From the NCBI RefSeq assembly GCF_963675165.1, contig NC_087390.1, forward strand, positions 2,866,001 through 2,930,000: 64,000 bases of DNA, in the 5' to 3' direction. This DNA comes from Halichondria panicea. Lineage: Eukaryota > Porifera > Demospongiae > Suberitida > Halichondriidae. Below the pieces are notes generated by a model that made no database searches, had not been told where the DNA came from, and saw only the letters and a program-made list of their open reading frames with translations. Both the position numbers and the translations under genes were made by a program. This document shows, piece by piece, positions 3,632-58,828 of the stretch (position 1 is its first letter; each line of letters begins with the position of its first letter).

Positions 3632-5600
3632 ATTTTTTATTTTTTTTATTTTTTTATAATAATTCTGCAAAATGCATGGATACACTAGTAGCATATTATG
3701 CTAACCTAATGTGTGCCCTGTATATATTACTTACAATAGCGAGTACAAATTAAAAATAAAGACTAATATTATACTAATGCAAGTGACAGAGTACATTTCT
3801 CTTAAATGACAAAATCGATGTACTTTCCTGCAGCTCCAGTGGTAATTCATTCCACACAGATATTGCTTTTGGGAAAAAAGAGTTCGCATATGCATTTGTT
3901 CTGCAAATTGGTCTTTCAAACTGTATATTTTTTGTGCTTCTTAGATTGAGAGGGCATACTCTTCTTTCCAGTGGTGGATCAGGGAATTTAAAGTTACCAT
4001 TTATTACCTGGTAAAGGTATGATAGCTTCAGGTACAATCTTCTTGTGGAAAGGGACGGTAGGTCCACAGTATCTAATAGGGAGTCGTAGTCCATATTCCA
4101 AAGTTTTGTGCAGATTTTAAGGGCAAACTTTTGTACTTTTTCTATTTTGTGAGAATTTGTTTTTTGGTGTGGATCCCAAACAGGGGCAGCATATTCCAGT
4201 TTTGATCTCACAAGAGAGATGTAGAGTTGTCTTAAACATTCTAGTGACGAGTGGCCATAGAACTGTCAGTAAATTATACCAACCTGCTTGCAGGCATTTC
4301 TGCACATTCCTTCTATATGTGTTTTGACCATAAGAGGTCGTGAGAGATCCACACGCCAAGGTACTTGTAGTGGTCAACTTTAAGTAGGGGACGTCCACTG
4401 ATATTGAGACACATGTTGGGAAGTGGTGGGCTGAATTTTCTTGATATAGTCATGTATTTACACTTGCTTTGGTTAAACAAGAGTACATTTCTTTCAGACC
4501 ATGCTTGGAGTTGATCAATATCTCCTTGCAATTTTATATAATCTTCAGGAGATTGAATAGGATGGTAAAGAAGAAGATCATCAGCATAGAGCAAGAGACT
4601 TCCTTCATTTTGATGTAGATCGATGTCATTTATATAGATTAGGAAAAGAAGAGGTCCTAGCACCGAACCCTGGGGAACTCCTGACACAACCTCCGAGATA
4701 TTTGATGACTTTCCATTTATTATGACATATTGTGATCTATTCCTGAGGTAGCTTGCTACCCAAGATACCAGATGGGGATCTAGGTTCAGATTGGTTAGCT
4801 TACTCATCAATATCGAGTGAGGAACCTTGTCAAATGCTTTTTTGAAATCAAAAAAGACTGCACATACACTCTGACCATCTTCAAGCAGTTTGTGCCAATT
4901 GTGCACTGCCGTAAGCAGCGCACCTGTGGTGGATTTTCCTTTAGTGAAACCCCATTGTTTATTCGAGAGGAAAGATATATCTTTTAGCTGTTCTAAGATT
5001 TTACTATACATATGTTTTTCCAGGAGCTTTACAAGGATGGAGAGTAGCGATATAGGGCGATAGTTTAAGGGATCAGACTTGTCGTTTGATTTGGGTATTG
5101 GAGTGACATGAGCCAATTTCCAGTCGTATGGCAGTTCACAGTTTTTTATCGATATATTGAAAAGCATTGTTATACTTGGGGTGATCGTTTCAGCAGTAGC
5201 CTTCAGCATTTTGGCGGAGATTCCATCAGGGCCATTTGCTTTTGTGGTGTCTAGATTTGATAACAGGTTGAATACTTCATCTTCTGTGCAGCGTAAGTTC
5301 TCAGGTAAGTCTCTTGTTGGTTGTTTAAAGGAATTTGGGTCAAGAGCGAGGAGGAAGTGAATGGTTGAAATTTGCATAAAACTGTTTGTTAAGGACCTGG
5401 GCCTTTTCTTCATCCTGTTCGATTTTGCAGCCATTTACTACAAGACATGGGATAGAGCTATCTGATTTTCTCAGGTATTTCAGAGCTGTACAAAATTTTT
5501 TGACTGAGGCTTGAGGGTGCTAAAGAAATCTTGTTTACTCCGTCTGAGAGTGGTCACAACCTTATTTCTGATCTGTTTGTAGGTTGCAATATACGGGCAC
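3632..5600 (-). mobile_element. LINE (non-LTR retrotransposon), 5'-truncated and frameshifted
   Basis: The minus strand encodes a LINE reverse transcriptase. About 4313-5434 holds the palm blocks: LNYRPISLLSILVKLLEK, VCAVFFDFKKAFDKVPH, VSGVPQGSVLGPLLFLIYIN and the catalytic YADD in LLLYADDLLLYH. The C-terminal part, with the KLEYAAPVWDPH motif typical of the CR1/Jockey/I group, lies in another frame at about 3774-4211, so at least one frameshift separates them. No endonuclease domain is visible, so the copy is 5'-truncated. On the minus strand it ends in an A-rich tail, seen on + as T runs at 3632-3656. It sits inside a flank that is unbroken at the equivalent place near 20490-20510, so it inserted after the duplication. 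It cannot encode an intact polymerase as it stands. Confidence 0.85.
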
Positions 5601-12132: not shown

Positions 12133-13431
12133 ATGGCAGCTCAATCCTTGGTCCCCTACATCCACCCAAGCCCAGCTTACCACAGGGATTTTTTCCTGTT
12201 GCAAATTCCCATCAAGATCAACAACCAACCAAGTGTCATCGAAATAGTTGATGGCACTCCTGTGCTACACTGTCCTGAGGTGGAGCTCTCAGTGCAACTG
12301 GTCGTACTAGCTCAGCATGTCTCCACTGTGCTAGCGGAATACCGTATCACGCTAAAAGGAGCCTATTACGATGACAACTATCCACTCTATGCCATTGATC
12401 TACCTCCTACAATATCCAAAGAGGGACTGCACTCTCTTTTGCCTGCTTTCTCAAATGTTTGCTATAGCATTACTGAGAGATATTTTTCACAAGTTCCTTG
12501 CAAGACCGTAGTGGTAGTTGACTTTCAGCTTTTTCTCTGCTCTCCTGCAAAGGACAGCTTTACAAATTCCAAACTCACCTCAATTCAGCTTGGACAAGAA
12601 TCAGACGAGATTCTTTTGACCTTTATAGACAGCAAGATGTTTAAATTCTCTGAGCTCTTCACCTCTAGATCCAGCTCGTCCCCTACAATCATTGAATCAT
12701 CCTCTAAAGCTACTGCTGTATCATTTGTGTCACTCCTCCGAGCACTGAGTGGAAAGGCCAGTCACAAGTGGTTCAATCTCGGAGCTCTGCTAGGAGTATC
12801 CGCTGAGAAATTGCAGAGAATTGAGAAGCAACACCAGAATCCAGACTCTTGCTTGACACACACACTCAAGAATGTGGTGGACAGTAACACCGAGCTGATG
12901 TGGGGAGAGGTGGTCTCAACGCTTTCCACTGTCGGGCTGAGCAATCTGGCAGAGGAAGTCAGTAAGGAACATGGTGAGTTACTCAAATGGAAATTCAAAT
13001 CTATTGTTGTGAATTAATTAGATGTATGCTTCCTGAGGGCTGAAAACGAACCTTTGACTAAACGTGAGTAGCAATGCAACCATGACATGTTTTAGACTAA
13101 TTTCATGTATTCACATGTACAGCCACTCTCCAATCTCTGAGCCAATCTTTAACTGATGTCAGTGCCAAGTGGTTCAACTTTGGTGCTCTTCTAGGAGTCC
13201 CCCCCAGTACACTACAAGCAATTGACAACCACTACCACTCTGACTGTGATGACTGCATGCCTCACTAGAATGCTTATGTGGCTGATAGAAAACTCACCCA
13301 TCACATGGTCCTCAGTAGCACAAGCTCTGGGCCAGATTGGATATGGAGACCTAGCGGAACAAATCAGACAATCACATGGTGAGCATAATTATGCCTCAAG
13401 GCGTAGCCGCACGAGGGATACGGTAAAGCTG

Positions 13432-13464
<33 letters not shown>

Positions 13465-14577
13465 TCCAGCTGTAACTGCTCAACGGTTGCAATGCGACAA
13501 AAACTAACAGCTTCTATAGGCTTCTAGCCACGTTCTTGAAACAATTGCAAATTATTTACCTCTTCTATAACACCCTAATACTTTTGAGCGAAAGCAAAAA
13601 ATGGCGAGAGGCATTAGCAAGCGCACGCTTGCAACACTCGTTATGGTGGTTTCTATTATTATGTATACTGCATGTATTAGCAGGTAATTTTCTTTTTCGT
13701 ATACGAACTAAATATTTCGTATTTTAAGTCTTCGTACAGCTCAGGATATATAGATGTTGAACCTATTGTGGTAGAATATTTTCATGATGCTCTACAATAC
13801 AAGTGTACGAACATTTCAACCATAATTAGCATTACCAGTTATAATTATACGCATGGTGCTAGGGATTCTTTGTGCAATGCACCCATATCAGATGATAATT
13901 GATGACCTTTTCTGATTTGTGCAGATATCTCACCAATACCATCTGAGAGTGTAACACAAGTAAGAAAACAAAATTTGATATTCGTCTAGTTGACAAGTGT
14001 TGTGTTGTCCTTGCATGTAGCAAGCTGAAGTAAGAGCCGATGATACAGAACAGTGGAAAATTGAAATAGAATCATCTGTCACTGAAGTACGACAAGAGGT
14101 CGACACTCTTAAGCAAGATTATGCTAGTATGAAAGATGTGCTAAATGGGCTACAAGAAGAAAAAGATAAAATCAAAAAATGCTTTGAGCAGGAACAAGCA
14201 CATTGCAACAGCCTTTATGAATCAAGAGCATAATCAACAGTGTGGGCATATATAGTGTTATTGAGGAAGAAATTATTGAGAACGAATCGACAGTAGCTGA
14301 TATAAAGAGTGAACTTGATTGCACCGATACAAAATACAATGACAAATCTCAGGAAATGGCCCGTCTTGCTACAACCCTATCGGTGAGAACAAGCAAACTT
14401 GTAGAAAAATCCTTTGTTTTGTCAAAAATTGAAGAGTCATTTTTTGAGTGCGATGATGAATCTGATGAATCTGAGTGCGATGATGCTAAACTGTCTTATC
14501 AACAACGGCTGGTGAAGGCTAAGACACTTTCTGAGGTTGATTATATTATAAGCTCCGCAAGAAGTCCGAGTAGTTGA
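12133..14577 (+). pseudogene. Left copy of the death-domain GTPase gene, frameshifted and truncated
   Basis: Exons correspond to the right copy: 12133-12973, 13022-13063, 13123-13378, 13925-13959 and 14021 onward. The first exon is intact and encodes the N-terminal region plus the first death domain. Exon 13123-13378 has a 4-bp insertion (13257-13260, a repeated ATGC) that shifts the second death domain into a TAG three codons later. The coiled-coil exon has lost about 60 bp around 14225, with a TAA at 14231-14233. Similarity ends at about 14540, so the filamin repeats and GTPase are absent. If transcribed, the product would be about 340 residues with a single complete death domain. It is either a pseudogene or a death-domain-only relic. 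The frame is also open through the first donor to a stop at 13015-13017 (294 aa). Confidence 0.85.
13381..13525. repeat. Dispersed intronic element, three copies in window
   Basis: The block runs from TAATTATGCCTCAAGGCGTA, through CGCACGAGGGATACGGTAAAG and a TG-rich centre, to AACTAACAGCTTCTATAGG. It recurs at 16261-16425 through the gene duplication. It also recurs independently in reverse orientation at about 34478-34622 in a DHX8 intron, which shows it is mobile. Ends are not sharply defined by eye. Confidence 0.7.
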
Positions 14578-15007: not shown

Positions 15008-18000
15008 ATGGCAGCTCAATCCTTGGTCCCCTACATCCACCCAAGCCCAGCTTACCACAGGGATTTTTTCCTGTTGCAAATTCCCTTCAAGATCGACAAC
15101 CAACCAAGTGTCATCAAAATAGTGGATACCACTCCTGTGCTACACTGTCCTGAGGTGGAAATCTCAGTGCAACTGGTTGTACTAGCTCAGCATGTCTCCA
15201 CTGTGCTAGCTGAATACAGTATCAGGCTAAAAGGAGCGTATTACGATGACAACTATCCACTCTATGCCATTGATCTACCTCCTCCAATATCCAAAGAGGG
15301 ACTGCACTCTCTTTTGCCTGCTTTCTCAAATGTTTGCTACAGAATTACTGAGAGATATTTTTCACGAGTTCCTTGCAAGACCGTAGTGGAAGTTCACTTT
15401 CAGTTTTTTCTCTGCTCCCCTGCAAAGGACAGCTTTACAACTTCCAAACTCACCTCAATTCAGCTTGGACAAGAATCAGACGAGATTCTTTTGACCTTTT
15501 TAGACAGCAAGATGTTTAAATTCTCTGAGCTCTTCACCTCTAGATCCAGCTCGTCCCCTACAATCATTGGATCATCCTCTAAAGGTGCTGCTGTATCATT
15601 TGTGTCACTCCTCCGAGCACTGAGTGGGAAGGCCAGTCACAAGTGGTTCAATTTCGGAGCCCTGCTAGGAGTATCCGCTGAGAAATTGCAGAGAATTGAG
15701 AAGCAACACCAGAATGCAGACTCTTGCTTGACACACACACTCAAGAATGTGGTGGACAGCAACACCGAGCTGACGTGGGGAGAGGTAGTCTCAACGCTTT
15801 CCACTGTTGGGCTGAGCATTCTGGCAGAGGAAGTCAGTAAGGAACATGGTGAGTTACTCAATGTATTTAAATGGAAATTCAATGTATTGTTGTGAATTAA
15901 TTATATAGGTGTATGCTTCCTGAGGGCTGCTGAAAATGAACCTTCGACTAAACGTGAGTAGCATGACATGTTTAGACTAATTTCATTCATGTATTCACAT
16001 GTACAGCCACTCTCCAATCTCTGAGCCAATCTTTAGCTGATGTCAGTGCCAAGTGGTTCAATTTTGGTGCTCTTCTAGGAGTCCCCCCCAGTACACTACA
16101 AGCAATTGACAACCACTACAACTCGGACTGTGATGACTGCCTCACTAGAATGCTTATGTGGCTGATAGAAAACTCACCCATCACATGGTCCTCAGTAGCA
16201 CAAGCTCTGGGCCAGATTGGATATGGAGACCTAGCGGAACAAATCAGACAATCACATGGTGAGCATAATTATGCCTCGAGGCGTAGCCGCACGAGGGATA
16301 CGGTAAAGTTGACTGTGTGTTTGTGTGTGTCTGTCTGTCTGTCTGTCTGTGTGTGTGTGTATTCCAGCTGTAACTGCTCAACAGTTGCAATGCGACAAAA
16401 ACTAACAGCTTCTATAGGCTTCTAGCCACGTTCTTGAAACAATTGCAAATTATTTACCTCTTCTATAACACCCTAATACTTTTGAGCGAAAGCAAAAAAT
16501 GGCGAGAGGCATTAGCAAGCGCACGCTTGCAACACTCGTTATGGTGGTTTCTATTATTATCTATACTGCATGTATAGCAGGTAATTTTCTTTTTCGTATA
16601 CAAACTAAATATTTCATATTTTAAGTATTCGCACAGCTCAGGAGATGTTGAACCTATTGTGGTACAATATTTTCATGATGCTCTACAATACAAGTATACG
16701 AACATTTCAACCATAATTAGCATTACCCGTTATAATTATACGCATGGTGCTAGGGATTCTTTGTGCAATGCACCCATATCTGATGATAATTGATGACCTT
16801 TTCTGATTTATGCAGATATCTTACCAGTACCATCTGAGAGTGGTGTAACACAGGTAAGGAAAACAAAATTTAATATTTATGTGCATGTGTATAGTTGACA
16901 AGTGTTATGTTGTCCTTGCATGTAGCAAGCTGAAGTAAGAGCCGATGATACAGAACAGTGGAAAATTGAAATAGAATTATCTGTTACTGAAGTACGACAA
17001 GAGGTCGACACTCTTAAGCAAGGTTATGCTATTATGAAAGATGTGCTAAATGGGCTACAAGAAGAAAAAGATAAAATCGAAAAACGCTTTGAGCAGGAAC
17101 AAGCACATTGCAACAGCCTTTATGAATCGAAAAGACTCCTGACCATTCACTTGCAAAAAGATGAACAACACTGCAAGAAAATCAAGGCCATTGAGGAAGA
17201 AATTATTGAGAAAGAATCGACAGTAGCTGATTTAAAGAGTGAACTTGATTGCACCGATACAAAATACAATGACAAATCTCAGGAAATGTCCCGTCTTGCT
17301 ACAGCCCTATCGGTGAGAACAAGTGAACTTATAGAAAAATCCTTTGTTTTGTCAAAAATTGAAGAGTCATTTTTTGAGTGCGATGATGCTGCTCTTAGAA
17401 TTGCTGACAAGCGAATACTAGACTATCAACAACGGCTGGTGGAGGCTAAGAAGGTTTCTCAGGCTGCTTATCTGGCTGAAATAAAGGTATATGGAAGATC
17501 GTTTAATGTGTGTGCTCTTGTTTCATTTTTACTTTTTCCCCTTTTTAGTCACAACTTGAAACTGAAACCGAATGCGTGAAGAACCTTGAAGAAAAGTGCC
17601 ACCTTATTGACAAACAGTGCTCTGACCTTGCCACCATTGTTGCTAGTATTGAAGGAGACATTGCTACCAAAGAACAAGCTTGTGAGACTCTGGAAAGCAA
17701 TACCGAGGGGTTTTTTCAGCAGCAGAAGCAGATTGAGCTCACTCAGCTAAAAATGGAAATAATAAATCGCAAACTGGAGCTTGCTAAAGCAAAGATCAAA
17801 CATCGAGATTCCACACAAGAATTAGCTTACCATCGAAAAGATTTTCAAAGAGCAAAAAACCTTTTGGTGAGTTCATAATAATTGTTGGCGCAAAAATATT
17901 TTTAACATTGCTACTTGCATTGCTTAACAAAGCAACTGTTTTCTTTCCAGCCTGAACTAAGCAAATGCAGTGTGGATGGTATCGATGTACCCGTACACAA

Positions 18001-19912
18001 AGCAAGAGCATACGTTGCCATGGAGATCAAGGTCCATCTTTACAACAGAGACGGCGAGCCATGCAGCGGACAGCATTTAGTTTCTCTATGCTGTGAAACA
18101 GATGAGCAGATGTTTACTGAGGCCAATAGCAGTGCCCCTGATGGCACTTACTCTCTCTCCTACACCCCCTCATGTCTGGGGGAGCGCTCGTTAGTGGTAG
18201 CCGTGAACAGTACACCCATCAACAAAACGCCCTTCAACGTGTTCTTCCTGAACAGCCCTCATCCCCCAAATTGCACTGTTATTTTAGACAAGAAAATTGT
18301 CCAACACAAAAAATTTGACGCCCTCGTGCAACTCAAAGACCAGAATGGTGACCAAATCAATTCACGACAGAACGTGTCAGCGTATTTTAAATTTCCTGAT
18401 ACATTCAAGAAGACTGAAGCAATTATTTCCTCTTCTAGTGATTCTCCTGACAAGTACACGCTTGTATTAACTACGCCTTCTAGTGGTGAGGGAGTGCTCT
18501 CCGTTTTTGTTGACGATCAGCTCATTGCTAGTCCCAGTGTAATCATTACTAGTCCCAGTGTAATCATTGCTAGTCCCAGTGTAATCATTACTAGTCCCAG
18601 TGCTAGTCCCAGTGTAATCATTACTTCAAAAAGCAGTACCCGCTCAACTAATTTGTTGCTGGGAATGGGTGGCCTTGGAGAAAAGATGGTTTCCAACATT
18701 CCACATTCAAAAGGTCCTCACCATCCCTTCAAAATGCTTCTCATTGGTGAAACTGGATCTGGCAAGACTTCTTTTCTCAACCTTCTGTACAACTGCGGTA
18801 CTGTGCAGGCTCTTGGATGTGGGTTCGGAGCTGAAGGTCTTGAACAATTTAAACAGTTCAATGACATCCAGCTAGAAAATGCAATGGAGCATGCAATGCA
18901 AAGCAAAACGAATGATGCCAAGCGATACAATGTTGAAGTTGGAGATCTTAAGGTTGGAGTAATCGATACTCCTGGCTTTGGTGATTCTCGTGGTCTGGAC
19001 CAAGACAAGGAAAATGCTGAAAAGATTGTGAATGCACTAAAAGCTGAAGACTACATTAACTGTGTCTGCCTGATCATCAATGGCTATCAAGCTCGAATAA
19101 GTGTTTCGCTGAAGTATGTTCTGTCCGAGATCACTGCCATTTTGCCAAGAGATATCCTTAACAAATTGATTGTTGTTTTCAGCAGCACCAGTGAAGCACT
19201 GGACCTCAACTTCGATCCGAAATTACTGACTGAATATTTTGGTAAGGAAGTCGACAACGTCTTTTACATCGAAAATCCTTACTGCCGGTTTGAGAAAGCA
19301 CGGAGTAAAGTGAAACAGCTCGGTATTGACTTAATTGCAAGCTCTTTACAGAAATCTTTTGAAGCCACTACTAAAGTCCTGGGTGATATGTGCACCACGA
19401 TCAAAGATTTCTCTCGGGTTCACACACGTCGATTTGTTGAGCTCTATGAGAAGAGGCAAGCCATTGAAAGCACTGTTTTCGTTGCACTCAATGAGTATGA
19501 AAACCAGATTTTCTTGGAAAAGGAAATAAGAAACAAGAGGAAAGAAGTGTCGGCTGCTATGGGTCGAAAGGAATTATTCAAGAAACGAGTATCAAAAGCA
19601 ATGGAAGCTGAATTCAACAAAGCCAAAAGTGATGAAGAACGAGCTCAACTATTGTACCACCAGTTTGAGGAGAAAAAACTAGCATCTGAAACTAAACGAC
19701 AGCAGCTGTATGACGAGCTTATTAAAGCAATCTCAGAGTTTGAGACCTTGGGAATTGCAAGGAATTACACAAAATTGATCGAAAACCAGTTGGCTCTAAT
19801 AGACACACATCTTGAAGGTTCAACTGGCCCCGAGTTCGAATACCTTTGTAAGACCAGGAATGATGTCAAGAAAATGCTGGAGGTGGTGCAAAAAGCCAAG
19901 AAAACGAAGTAA
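15008..19912 (+). CDS. Death domain x2 / coiled coil / filamin repeat / P-loop GTPase protein
   Basis: Seven exons in phase give 1338 aa: 15008-15848, 15909-15953, 16007-16258, 16816-16853, 16926-17486, 17549-17866, 17951-19912. Order: an unrecognised region 1-195; death domain 1 about 196-281 (KWFNFGALLGVSAEKLQRIE, TWGEVV, LAEEV); death domain 2 about 297-380 (KWFNFGALLGVPPSTLQAID, TWSSVAQAL, LAEQIRQ); charged coiled coil about 395-685; two filamin-type repeats about 693-788 and 789-888, the first with DGTYSLSYTP; SPSVIIT repeats about 881-913; a GTPase with Walker [10 protein letters not shown] at 951-959 and G3 DTPGFGD from 1024; a helical tail from about 1130. The GTPase is nearest the AIG1/septin-like TRAFAC group; no NKxD is seen, and VVFSSTSEA sits where G4 is expected. 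No signal peptide or membrane segment is visible, so it is probably cytosolic. Death domains recruit partners by homotypic binding. Signalling, possibly immune, is inferred from architecture only. Confidence 0.85.
18528..18628 (+). repeat. In-frame 21-bp coding repeat
   Basis: The unit AGTCCCAGTGTAATCATT plus a changing codon occurs about five times, one of them shortened to AGTCCCAGTGCT. It encodes SPSVIIT/SPSVIIA between the second filamin-type repeat and the GTPase. It is probably a flexible or beta-prone linker whose length can change by slippage. The left gene copy lacks this region. Confidence 0.85.
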
Positions 19913-53500: not shown

Positions 53501-56500
53501 ACTTCACTCTAAGTAGTGGAGTCTGTTGAAGCAAGCCACGTATATATATAGAAGTTAATTGTGTGTTTCCCTGTTAGTCTTATTAGTAGTGCATGACATA
53601 ACGTTATGTTTCTGTATTACCTTAAGAGTTCGGTGGCCATCTGTTGACTGTGTGTGTTGTATGATCAACACCCAGTGCCTCAGGGCCAAACACTGCACTT
53701 GGGGGGATCGTGAGTGGGGTCCATTTTAGGAGATTGATGAAAACAAAACACAGGCTTTATTTATTTATTGTGTATCCTAATGGAAGGCACATGACTCTGC
53801 ATATTGAGATGGGTGTGTGTGTGTATGCTGGGTGTAGTGTTTTCATTTATTGTTTTTATTCTTGCAGGAGTATTGGAGCTCTGACCTATGCACTGTGAGT
53901 GGCTGTTGTGTTGTGCTTTATGTTATAATACTGCATCCTGTACGGTTTGTGCTCGTGCAGTTTGCATATAGAGAGAGCATGCGTTTCTGTAACAACTATT
54001 GGATGCCCTAAACTAGCCCATAAATTATTGCAAAATGCTTATAATTTAGTGATTAAATAGCACACGTACCTCACCCTATGTAAACTGTTTAAAAATGTCA
54101 TGCTCCATATGTAAGTATAGCTAAAGAGTTCTCCCATGATACCACAAGTAACCCCATTCCCTCTTACAGGATGACTGGCTACTCCCCGTTCCAAGGCGAG
54201 ACTCACCAGGAGACGTTCCTCAACGTGTCCATGGCTGACTATGACTTTGATGATGAGTTGTTTGAGCAAGTCTCTAATGAAGCGAAGGATTTTATTGAGA
54301 AACTGCTGATACTGCGTCCAAAGTAAGTCGATTACCATGCACACATATATATATATGCATGCTATCAGTAAGGCAACTCGACAATAAATAAGTCATGCAA
54401 CTCTAGCTAGTGTGTGGGTGAGCACAAAAAGGAATCAGTGTCAGTAATATTATTTATTTGCAGTTTTAAATTAGACAGGTGGCCTTGGCAAAATATTAGT
54501 GATCTCTGATACCACACAAGGACTTATTCCGCCCACTATTATTGTGTGCAACCACCCACTCACTCAAGCACCGTTCTCTCTTACTGGGTTACGACGACCA
54601 TATATAGTCATTACCCACCTCTGCATATCTTTATCTATAAATACCTTGATATTTGATTACTTAAAAGGCTCATAGTATTGTCCATTATGGCCAATATATC
54701 GGATTACAGCTAAGCATGTGGCCGTAATTGTATGTTGCATTAAACCTAAATGCTATATACATCACTATACCAACAAGTTTGTATTTAGTCAGACAGTGCA
54801 TGGGCTTTGTGTGTGGTATGTGTTGTGTATATATGGTGGCATAAACAATGCTGGCTCCAATCGGCTGAGGCATCTCATTTGGCCCATTGAATTACACTCC
54901 AGTCTAGGGATTACTTGAATGCATTGTGGTCATAAATGGTCATGCTCTGATGATTTGTGGGTGTTGTGAGAAATCCCATAGGCTTCAGGAGACTGCCAGT
55001 TTATTATGTCTGGCTGATTGTATACCTGCTAATTACTGCTTCAATTGCTTCCCTTTTCATTCTGTAACATAAAGACTGTTGATTCACACTCCCTCTCCCC
55101 CCCCCCCCCCCCACACACACACGCAGAAAGAGACTCACAGCTGCTAAGTGTCTACAGCACCCCTGGATGAAGGCTCGTAGTGCCAACCTGAACAGTTCAA
55201 CCTCGTCCCTCGATTCAGCCGTGTGTATCGACTCCACCTCATCCATGGAACCATCTCCTTCCAGCTCCACCTCCTCCTCATTTGAACCCGCTCCCTCTAC
55301 TCCCACGACAACCTCGGCACCGATCATGTCCAAACCAGAGGATGTCAAAAAGCTCAGCCAAAGCCTCACAACATCTTTAGTCACCGAGAGACACGTAGCT
55401 GACTCAAAGCCAAAGAACAAAGACACTCAAAGTGCTCCAAAAGAGATAGAAAGCTCGTCAAAGAAAGATGTACAATCACCTGAAACTTCCATTCCTGAAC
55501 TACAATCTACCAAAGGAGATGGTGTGCAAGCTCCGCCCATTTCTCCCCCGTTGAGTACAGGGTCTAGCACTAGCACCCTCCGAGGTGGTGATTCTTTCGA
55601 GAGTATTCCAACACTCAAAGAAGACACGGGAAAATCGAAAACAAAAGTGGATCTGACGGACAGTGGCGCAGAAAAAGAGGTGTCACCGAAATCTAAAAAC
55701 GCTGATAGTACTGATAGCACATCTACAAGTTACAAGTACAGTTCGAGATTCACTAGGGATTCAAACGCTTCAGAGTCCAAAGTATTAAGGAAATCGACAT
55801 CTCCGAGCTCGTCTTTTGATAAGAAGTACAGGTCCTCCAGGAGCACCTCTGAGGAAAAAGAGACTACTCTGTCTGATGCCAGCAAGCCTAAGCTCGAATC
55901 CAAAGACACTGAAAAATCAACTAGTGAGAGTAAGTACACACCGCCTGCAGAGAAAGAGTCAACAGCAAAGGCATATCGATACACGCCTAAATATACCCCT
56001 AGAGAGAGTGGGTCCAGGTCTCCTAGAGAGGACTGCATCTCACCAACTAAAGCGGAGCAGAGGCCTAGCTCAAGAAACTCACCACTCGAGATACGCAGTG
56101 AAGAGCCTTACAAGAGGAGGATTGGATCCAGAACCAGCTCACTCGAGAACACTCAAGAAGATTCCACCGGCTATAGGTCGCGAAGATTTGCAGCTAACAG
56201 TGCAAATAGTTCTACGGAGGACACTAAGTCGAGTTCAGTAGTGGAGAAACAATTGCCAACGTCTAAAGTGACCATTACCGATGTCACTAGCAAGACTGCT
56301 TCAACGGAATGCACTACCAGTGAGTTAGGTGCATGGGGTGTGTGTAGTTGAATTGTACAACATTATGTACATACATGCGTACCTTTATTGTATTCCAATA
56401 CATTTTTTAGCAATACTCTTGCACATATTCTGCATATGTATTTTATTATTGACATGTTTTCTTTCCTTCAGGTCCTCCACTGTCCACTATGTTGAGCAAG

Positions 56501-58828
56501 CCCACGACAGAACCAGCCAAGATCTCACCCACAAAGACGAAACGTACCACTTCCATGGAGTCAGATACAGACTACGGCTCTGGTAGCTCACGTTCCAGTT
56601 CCCTCGAGACCACCCCCTCCACGAAACAGGATAACAAGTACGCCCTCGACAGGGTTCCTATTGGTCGATCTCGAGAGAGAACCAGTGAGAGTTATGTCAC
56701 CAAGTCATCCACCTTGGAGCGACCGTACAAGACCAGTTTGACATCCTCCTACGATTCTCAGAGAGATAAACATTTAGAATCAGTCACCACTGCTGCTCTA
56801 AGGAGCCAAACCCTGGGCCGTAAATCGGCCCTTAATTCAACTTCAAACTCGTCGACACGCTTGGCTAGCACTCTGGACCGTAAGCGTCCTCCTTCAAGTC
56901 GAATAGCCTCCTCTGATGTGACTAGCCTCAACCCCGCTACCATAGAGAGCCTGGAGAAACTGGAGAGGATTAAAAGACGAGATCATCATCGACCCCTAAC
57001 CCCCGAGCCTGAAAGTCCAGGGGTCACTCAGATCAAGATGCTGCAATCACCAGAACGACAATCACGAAGGAAGAGTGAAGGGAACCATCCGATAGGTCAT
57101 TTGATTGGTCACCTGACCTGTACTCCCAGTACACTACCTGAAGAACCCGAGATTGGTGCGGAAAAGGATACTAACACGGTTGAAAGCACACAGGAAACGA
57201 ATATTCCTCAAACTACAGAGAAACCAGATGCCATTAAAAATACACCAGACATTGTGGTGGAAAGTGCAGTTAAAGATACTGGAGACTTGAAAACAGGCAG
57301 CAAAGATGTCGTAAAGGTTTCTGTCACAACTGATGATTCGATTAAGACTGTTCAAAGTAGTATAGAAGTATCGAGCAAAACTACAGAGAAAGATGACAGT
57401 AAAGATGACTCGCCAAACAAAACTGAAAATGCTATTGTACAGAGGAAAGAAAGAGTAGCTGAGGTAGGGAAGAAAGAAGGACTCTCTCGAACAATGAGTC
57501 AACCTCCCAAATCTACCTCGCCCTCGGACGATCGCAAGTCAAAGTATAAGTCCTCCACAGACAATGTGTACACCCTCGTTTCCCGCTCACCGATTGAGTC
57601 AGTGTGGGGGAGTTTTCGTTCCGAGAAAACAACGTCAATCCGTACCAAGACGAGGGACGATCACAGTTGGCGAGTCAAAACCCCAACATCCGATTCCCCC
57701 CGAAGTACTCAAATAAAGTGTGATTCTCCGAATACATCCCGCTCCAACACACCTACTTCCCCTCCTTTGCGTAAACCTGACGAGGTTAAACGTGAGAATT
57801 CGTTTGGATCACGCTCATCCACACCAACTTCTCCCCTTGTCAAGGATACAGACAAACCCTTAAGAGAAGGTCGATCAAGCCCCAAAATTACCTACACTTC
57901 TGTGAAGATCGAGGAAAGAATAACCAGCCCTACTCCTAAAGCACCAGTAGTCAAGGAAACTTCTGAAGAGAGTCCGAAAGCAATAGTTCATCATTCTAAG
58001 AGTCCAACCCCACTTCGCAGTACAGAGGTGAAACTAAGAACACGTTTGACCACTTCCCCCGGACGAGACCATCGCCGACCAAAGTCACGTGATTGTGAGG
58101 CCATGAGAGCAAAGAAAATCGAGCAGAGGAAGACACCAGTTCTGACTCCCGAGGCATTGGAAGCTTTGGACTCAATGCTCAAATGTGGCGTCACTGATGA
58201 CAGTGACGTACTGGAAACGTGTGTGGAGGAGGAAGAACCAAAAGAGACATCCTATTTGAAGTTTGAACCTCGCGTTGCATCTCCTGAAAAGAGAGTCACT
58301 CTCGATTCCAAACCATCTGTTCTCAATGAGCCCGCAATGCCCAGTGCAGTGAGAAAGGTGCTGCTTGAAGATAAAAGACAGACAAAAAGTGCGAGCACAC
58401 TCAGTAACGAACGTGACTCCCTCCCCGTGTGCCCGGAGGTGGGGGAACCCCCTTCTGATGCATTCTCGCAGAGTATGGACGCGAGATTGTCTCTCTCCAG
58501 CAAAGGTCGTTTCCGACATTCGTTTTCCGGTGGCATTTCCACCTCTCTATCGATGACAGACTTGTCTCAGATTGGTAAGAAAGAAAGCAAAGCTCGACGT
58601 GTGGGGAGATCTAATAGCAAGCGATTGATTGGACGCTCGGCAATCGATTCATACGTATCAGACAATCGTACCAGCCCTTCGCGTCGAGGATCTGGTTCTG
58701 GTACTCTCTCTGTTACAAGTTTGCAAAGCTCATCATCAAGTACTCTCCCGGCTACTAAAATACTCAGTGGGAGAGGTATTGACTATAAAGAGAAAAAACC
58801 TGAAAGAAGGTTTAGATTATTCAAGTAA
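47541..58828 (+). CDS. DRAK/STK17-like Ser/Thr kinase with very long Ser/Thr-rich tail
   Basis: Nine exons in phase give 1446 aa: 47541-47620, 47784-48005, 49981-50116, 51680-51803, 53352-53400, 53868-53894, 54170-54322, 55127-56319, 56472-58828. The kinase domain is about residues 18-277: GRGKFAIVKR glycine loop, FAAK with the ATP lysine at 48, VHLDLKPEN (catalytic D at 144; HLD instead of HRD is typical of DRAK), ADFG at 163-166, SPE at 188-190 and WSIGALTYALMTG. This matches DAP-kinase family members of the DRAK (STK17) branch, which phosphorylate myosin light chain and influence apoptosis. Usual DRAKs are about 370-420 aa. Here roughly 1170 further residues, rich in S, T, P, K and R with no globular domain visible, continue to RRFRLFK and stop. 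No ankyrin repeats or death domain as in DAPK1 are present. The ATG at 47541 is preferred; the frame is open upstream to 47403. Confidence 0.88.
48006..49980. other. Kinase intron 2, nothing else seen
   Basis: This intron of about 2 kb, and those at 50117-51679 and 51804-53351, are AT-rich. I found no recognisable exon, RNA gene or element in them on either strand. Confidence 0.45.

Follow-up and report, generated by a model that had tools for sequence, protein, structure and literature searches.

Overall architecture

The window analysed here, a stretch of 64,000 nucleotides from the genome of Halichondria panicea (NC_087390.1, positions 2,866,001 to 2,930,000), carries on its forward strand a gene, termed W (window positions 15008-19912), whose predicted protein joins an N-terminal region of about 200 residues (N1) to two death domains, a coil of about 290 residues, filamin-type repeats and a P-loop GTPase. 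Judged from its sequence, W is one gene in which a constant scaffold carries an exchangeable end. Its architecture, its exon phases, the constraint on the protein and a separate, recombinant history of the GTPase end all emerge from comparison.

W runs from an ATG at 15008 to a stop at 19912 in seven exons (15008-15848, 15909-15953, 16007-16258, 16816-16853, 16926-17486, 17549-17866, and 17951-19912). The spliced frame is open over 1338 codons, encoding 1338 amino acids, and all six introns are GT-AG, with phases matching across every junction. A first-pass annotation of this DNA had proposed one continuous phased gene with six introns, and the open model bears out its coordinates, order and intron count. 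Its domain list (death domains, coil, filamin, GTPase) stands as well, but omitted the N1 region ahead of the death domains. The parts of W, with a partial copy upstream of it, are as follows.

15008-15607 (+): N1, N-terminal region without a recognised family, at the start of exon 1
15608-15847 (+): death domain 1 (DD1), at the end of exon 1; Pfam Death match below threshold, homologous to DD2
15909-15953 (+): exon 2, 15-codon linker with canonical phase-1 junctions; equivalent exon in paralog A
16007-16258 (+): exon 3, death domain 2 (DD2); Pfam Death match above cut-off, 93% identical in paralog A
16259-16815 (+): intron 3, which owes its length to a dispersed repeat; the corresponding intron of paralog A has 81 nt
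16499-16580 (+): rival ATG segment inside intron 3; open, containing a phase-1 donor and, by eye, a hydrophobic stretch like a membrane helix; its ATG lies within the dispersed repeat, and the segment is absent in A
16816-16853 (+): exon 4, short linker DILPVPSESGVTQ of about 13 codons; matched in position and phases (1 to 0) by a short exon in A and in the model of the contig C5 paralog
16926-17486 (+): exon 5, coiled coil part 1; dN/dS 0.31 against A, heptad-like periodicity together with exon 6
17549-17866 (+): exon 6, coiled coil part 2, from the splice model, dN/dS and periodicity
17951-18250 (+): filamin repeat 1, at the start of exon 7; Pfam Filamin match
18251-18550 (+): probable second, diverged filamin-type repeat; without a Pfam match, conserved with A, B and the C5 paralog
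18528-18709 (+): linker with a short tandem repeat (SPSVIIT-like units) and a GLGEK stretch; holds the breakpoint described below
18710-19912 (+): P-loop GTPase and C-terminal helical region, including the stop; G1 GETGSGKT, G3 DTPGFGD, G4 changed to STSE; Pfam AIG1/Septin/MMR_HSR1
12133-14577 (+): upstream tandem partial copy with N1, DD1, DD2 and a disrupted coil; probable pseudogene without a filamin or GTPase match

In what follows, A and B denote fused paralogs of W, S1-S5 stand-alone GTPases and C1-C3 GTPases lying behind another exon. All of these and W itself are on one contig (C14), and contigs C5, C6 and C15 belong to the same genome.

Conservation of the domain order

Paralogs A (C14:2098469-2093829) and B (C14:2105489-2100931) lie 0.78 Mb from W. 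Both contain all seven query segments in the order of W within about 4.6 kb. A more distant paralog on contig C5, modelled by picking exons by hand from the sequence, has an N1 about 30-34% identical to that of W. After N1 come a single exon for a death domain, a short one serving as linker, two for the coil and one for filamin, all in phases that match W. Unlike W, this paralog has only one death domain, which occupies an exon separate from N1. At its C-terminus, four ankyrin repeats were modelled (Pfam Ank E 1.3e-7 and 2.8e-7 in the two that were scanned), and the GTPase search of the genome listed nothing on C5. Because the same order recurs in A and B, and the scaffold half with its phases in the C5 paralog, the order seen in W goes beyond chance. 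Six loci in the genome contain N1, namely W, the upstream tandem copy, C14:2856362, A, B and C5; the copy at C14:2856362 gave no filamin or GTPase match.

Ten filamin matches were found in the genome, of which four are W, A, B and the C5 paralog. Two of the other six were inspected, and both have the order RING-B-box-filamin-NHL, one by Pfam and one by eye. Such TRIM-NHL-like frames are separate from the W family.

Constraint was estimated from the ratio of nonsynonymous to synonymous substitution rates (dN/dS) between W and A in eight segments. The values are 0.47 for N1, 0.24 for DD1, 0.24 for DD2, 0.31 and 0.54 for the two coil exons, 0.26 for filamin and 0.23 for the GTPase, whereas the 11-codon linker exon has a dS of 0 and hence no ratio. 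By this comparison the W protein is under constraint, the seven of eight segments with a dS above zero falling at 0.23-0.54.

Separate history of the GTPase end

A genome search with the GTPase gave 21 matches, corresponding to 11 gene loci on C14 and two distant ones. The 11 loci comprise the fused W, A and B, the stand-alone S1-S5, and C1-C3. S1-S5 are open frames starting close before the GTPase, and no scaffold segment was found beside them; Pfam was run on two of the five (S1 and S2). The upstream exons of C1 and C3 score 23.7 and 23.1 bits for CARD, just under the cut-off of 23.9, and the upstream frame of C2 has no CARD match by Pfam. C2 and C3 have short GTPase frames.

The GTPase of W is closest to stand-alone genes. 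Compared with S4, its DNA is 89.8% identical over 18711-19572 and 83.5% over 19598-19912. Compared with A, it is 72% identical over 18728-19467, and 81-88% upstream of 18543; in sliding windows, identity to A is still 82% in the first window of the GTPase and 55-73% further on. Synonymous divergence gives the same picture. The GTPase dS is 0.278 for W-S4, 0.324 for W-S1, 1.258 for W-A, 1.839 for W-B, 0.406 for B-S2, 0.36 for B-S3 and 0.948 for A-S2, values that approach or exceed 1 being almost saturated and meaning only "much older". In the six scorable scaffold segments, the W-A dS is 0.14-0.45. Approximately unbiased (AU) tests rejected W, A and B as one GTPase clade (p 3.5e-52). A clade of A and B was rejected less strongly (p 0.024), A+B+S2+S3 was rejected (p 0.005), and W+S1+S4+S5 was not (p 0.447). 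Since dS between W and A is 1.258 in the GTPase and 0.14-0.45 in the scaffold, and the W+A+B clade is rejected, the GTPase end has a history separate from that of the scaffold.

The relative identity of W to A and to S4 switches between 18543 and 18711, where the short tandem repeat lies. By eye, the linker of W (GLGEK...KGPHHPF) resembles the S4 N-terminus (GVGEK...KGQDPHHPF). The pattern is most simply explained if scaffold genes recombined with stand-alone GTPase genes, with a breakpoint at 18543-18711. The exchange could have gone in either direction, placing a GTPase onto a scaffold or a scaffold onto GTPases.

Two further features of the C14 array were observed. At C14:2146209-2143920 (L014:2920-5209, reverse strand), a CARD-like exon (23.7 bits) splices in frame, by eye, to a GTPase exon of this family. 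S4 and S5 (C14:2157107-2160000 and 2183208-2186000; L015 and L018) are about 26 kb apart, in stretches that are 99.7% identical over the 3.8 kb compared.

Domains of the scaffold

Pfam was run on exons 1, 3, 5, 6 and 7 of W, exons 2 and 4 (15 and about 13 codons) not being included. In five copies of N1, mostly including DD1, only Death recurs, together with two single weak matches, and no Pfam family was found for N1 in the diverged C5 copy. A profile of N1 and DD1 had no match among PDB sequences at E up to 1. TRADD-N also gave no Pfam match for N1, although the clade described in the available text of PMC8195603 may fall below such models.

The tandem death domains proposed in the first-pass annotation are confirmed by two routes. 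DD2 passes the Pfam Death cut-off (E 1.2e-5, 25.8 bits against 22.6), as does its equivalent in paralog A (29.2 bits). DD1 is below threshold (E 0.0095), but it aligns with DD2 at about 42% identity (E about 6e-15) and is counted as a death domain because of this homology; six helices are predicted for it at low confidence (predicted local distance difference test, pLDDT, about 40-61). The proposed coiled coil also holds: exons 5 and 6 contain four Gly/Pro in 293 residues and have a hydrophobic periodicity of 3.5 residues, reached by 1 of 2000 shuffles. As for the filamin repeats, the first is recognised (Pfam Filamin E 2.7e-9 to 3.4e-9) and is nearest to TRIM71 (E 7.9e-4) and filamins among PDB structures, but the second has no Pfam match.

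GTPase class and nucleotide-binding motifs

The GTPase exon of W passes three Pfam cut-offs: AIG1 (30.6 bits, cut-off 27), Septin (29.1, 26.2) and MMR_HSR1 (26.5, 21.9). The first-pass annotation had placed it nearest to GIMAP/septin-like enzymes. The GTPase of paralog A scores 23.8 bits for AIG1, below the cut-off. Against PDB sequences, the GTPase profile matches septins best (E 3.6e-6); among the best 60 of 207 matches, septins reach column 130 of 493 at most and GIMAP is absent. NACHT and NB-ARC have no Pfam match in W, and NACHT appears only at E 0.041 in C1 and 0.11 in S2, far under the cut-off.

As had been noted earlier, the motifs GETGSGKTS (G1) and DTPGFGD (G3) are both present, and they are intact. 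The G4 motif is NTSD in S1 and S4, NTAD in S2, S3 and C1, NTGD in A and NAAD in B, and STSE in W; these two substitutions speak against a normal specificity for guanine in W. In addition, a Cys/His-rich segment of roughly 80 residues, found in A, B, S1-S5 and C1, is missing from W, and a related form of it occurs in the distant proteins of C6 and C15. Those two GTPases have long N-terminal extensions (L023:1337-3577, reverse strand; L024:2046-4562, forward strand). With two G4 residues altered and the Cys/His-rich segment gone, the nucleotide gating suggested earlier is doubtful in W, and nucleotide control seems more credible for the paralogs.

Proposed function

The W protein is probably intracellular and soluble, as no signal peptide is apparent by eye. 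Its coiled coil would hold it as a dimer or higher oligomer, and through its death domains it could bring in death-domain partners that belong to apoptotic or immune signalling. The filamin repeats may serve as a stem or a partner-binding site. The exchangeable C-terminus, a GTPase in W and ankyrin repeats in the C5 paralog, would act as a sensing or specificity module. Septins, Toc34 and GIMAPs undergo nucleotide-dependent dimerisation or oligomeric change. In those paralogs whose G motifs are intact, the signalling state might likewise be set by a nucleotide-driven switch between oligomeric forms; in W this control may be altered, given the changed G4 and the lost Cys/His-rich segment. From these sequence features we infer oligomerisation, partner recruitment, sensing and an immune role. 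The combined picture, a coil-oligomerised death-domain scaffold that recruits partners and bears an exchangeable sensing C-terminus, with a nucleotide-set state in the paralogs, has in our view an even chance of being correct.

A broader proposal, which we advance tentatively and would put at a little under even, is that W belongs to a receptor-like family of an early-branching animal. Its constant N1-death domain-coil-filamin scaffold would be re-armed by recombination with GTPase modules of the stand-alone genes arrayed on the same contig and, in a distant member, would bear ankyrin repeats. Other GTPases of the array would have acquired a CARD, and the whole would be a GTPase-based parallel to NOD-like receptors (NLRs) in which exchanging modules creates diversity. 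A comparable NLR-like logic had been suggested in the first-pass annotation; its set of parts (death fold, scaffold, P-loop NTPase) and a modular family agree with the present data, but the gating is doubtful in W. The idea of a modular family is strengthened by the same-order paralogs and by the CARD-like or ankyrin partners. If the proposal is right, an animal assembles molecules resembling NLRs around another class of NTPase, which is itself the part that gets exchanged, and the locus is a local, recent example of domain order changing by recombination between related genes. It would also provide a system for studying GIMAP/septin-like GTPases tied to death domains, with a constant scaffold, three GTPase lineages and one ankyrin version.

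Several observations weigh against the reading of W as a death-domain scaffold with a sensing C-terminus. Pfam puts the W GTPase in three families at once, and its G4 is STSE where six of the seven other members compared have NTxD and B has NAAD. The tree does not fix the exact place of W beside S1, S4 and S5. N1 has no recognised family, and the AlphaFold models are poor (mean pLDDT 35.4 for N1 with DD1, from two window rows, and 48.5 for the W GTPase, from a single sequence). A search of PDB sequences with DD2 alone was uninformative, its top matches being endolysins (E 0.0011), while death domains scored no better than E 0.39-0.93. Between W and the upstream tandem copy, the dN/dS of N1 is 0.83. 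That copy is broken, and paralog B carries a frameshift with a stop in DD2, so that copies of this gene evidently decay.

Alternative explanations

It is very improbable that the locus divides into a short gene for the death domains, which would end in intron 3, and a separate membrane-anchored coil-filamin-GTPase gene beginning at ATG 16499. Intron 3 does hold a segment that starts with an ATG, includes a hydrophobic stretch and has a donor in the right phase, and translation continued past exon 3 meets a stop at 16425. Yet this ATG belongs to a repeat that occurs at dozens of sites (16263-16434 and about 16442-16543 in intron 3; at least 78 matches among those listed, with 40 of 2987 first-look genome candidates scored), which is also the cause of the length of the intron in W. 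The corresponding intron of A has only 81 nt, with neither repeat nor ATG segment, the seven segments of A and B stay together in order, and the C5 model retains the exons for death domain and linker together with the phases. The membrane-anchored second gene was dropped as the main model on account of the repeat-borne ATG, the short intron in A and the C5 exon phases; the segment may be a lineage-specific alternative start in the W copy. The dispersed repeat (16263-16543) occupies intron 3 of both tandem copies. The decay of sister copies raises a different doubt, that W too is a decaying chimeric copy without function: the copies upstream and at C14:2856362 are broken or partial, and W itself has lost the Cys/His-rich segment and has a changed G4. 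This is nonetheless improbable, as all 1338 codons are open with every splice signal in place and dN/dS is below 1 in every scorable segment.

The same two changes in the GTPase bear on a reading that accepts W as functional, in which its GTPase-derived end no longer cycles and the protein is a decoy or constitutive scaffold, acting as an always-on adaptor or as a dominant-negative regulator of its paralogs. The two substituted G4 positions (NTSD in S4, STSE in W) and the absence of a segment present in A, B, S1-S5 and C1, and related in C6 and C15, fit this reading, but the intact G1 and G3 motifs and a W-S4 GTPase dN/dS of 0.38, by which the module still looks constrained, make it somewhat unlikely. 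Also rather unlikely is a cytoskeletal or mechanical scaffold, in which filaments or membranes would be organised by filamin, septin-like GTPase and coil together, with the death domains serving only for assembly. The septin matches at the top of the GTPase profile search (best 60 of 207) and the proximity of the filamin repeat to TRIM71 and filamin structures speak for it. However, two neighbouring GTPases lie behind CARD-like exons, the C5 paralog pairs its death domain with ankyrin repeats, and conflict genes commonly expand locally and exchange modules, a theme of PMC8195603 in its available text. An oligomeric death-domain scaffold with an exchangeable end remains the preferred reading.

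Other features of the window

Elsewhere in the window, a 373-residue open frame at 4313-5434 (reverse strand) resembles, by eye, a reverse transcriptase of the long interspersed nuclear element type. At 55083-58828 (forward strand) there are two long Ser/Thr-rich open frames, the first of which starts, by eye, like the end of a protein kinase.

Comparison with known systems

Like NLRs, W combines a death fold, a middle part and a P-loop NTPase; unlike them, its NTPase is of the AIG1/septin type rather than NACHT and stands last, and no leucine-rich repeat match was found in the scanned exons. With TRIM45 and TRIM71, W shares a coiled coil followed by a filamin repeat, but the scanned exons have no RING, B-box or NHL match, and exons 2 and 4 are too short for a RING or B-box. 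The earlier description of a TRIM layout with death domains in place of RING and B-boxes is best taken as one of layout rather than of descent. Septins resemble W in the P-loop, in DTPGFGD, in the Pfam Septin score and in the top PDB profile matches. They differ in that the Pfam match covers only profile positions 4-76 of 280 and in G4, which is AKAD in septins and STSE in W.

No open-access paper combining AIG1, filamin and a death domain was found, nor was the full architecture of W in titles and abstract openings of that literature, in partial listings. By term counts, GTPase, filamin and AIG1 do not occur in the main text of a Dysidea NLR paper. The earlier statement that no described family has this order was nevertheless too strong, since fusions of a death fold to AIG1 are described in Biomphalaria and lancelets. 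In the available text of PMC7053062, Biomphalaria AIG proteins carry DD-Fas or DD-CARD, with coiled coils and tandem arrays; GIMAPs are there not known from Amphimedon, and the role of invertebrate AIGs is called uncertain. PMC12373286, as far as available, describes lancelet CARD-AIG1-HINT proteins, states that among animals only amphioxus has its CARD and HINT architectures, and includes Halichondria panicea homologs in its tree. The CARD-like exons at C1 and C3, if confirmed, would qualify the amphioxus-only claim.

As described in these sources, the snail and lancelet proteins share with W a death-fold domain N-terminal to an AIG1-like GTPase. W differs from them in having N1, two death domains, a coil of about 290 residues and filamin repeats before the GTPase, its GTPase also scores as a septin, and its family differs in the exchange between scaffold and stand-alone genes; compared with the lancelet proteins, W has no HINT match. 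In the available text of PMC8195603, TRADD-N proteins of Crassostrea are reported to contain death-like domains and AIG-GTPases, and death-like/TRADD-N proteins of Amphimedon to differ in their C-termini, which can be ankyrin repeats. These proteins resemble the W family in joining a constant death-fold part to a variable C-terminus, but in W no TRADD-N is recognised, N1 precedes the death domains and there is a filamin stem. Collectively, the fusion of a death fold to AIG1 is already known, and the order N1-death domain-death domain-coil-filamin-GTPase would be a new variant of it.

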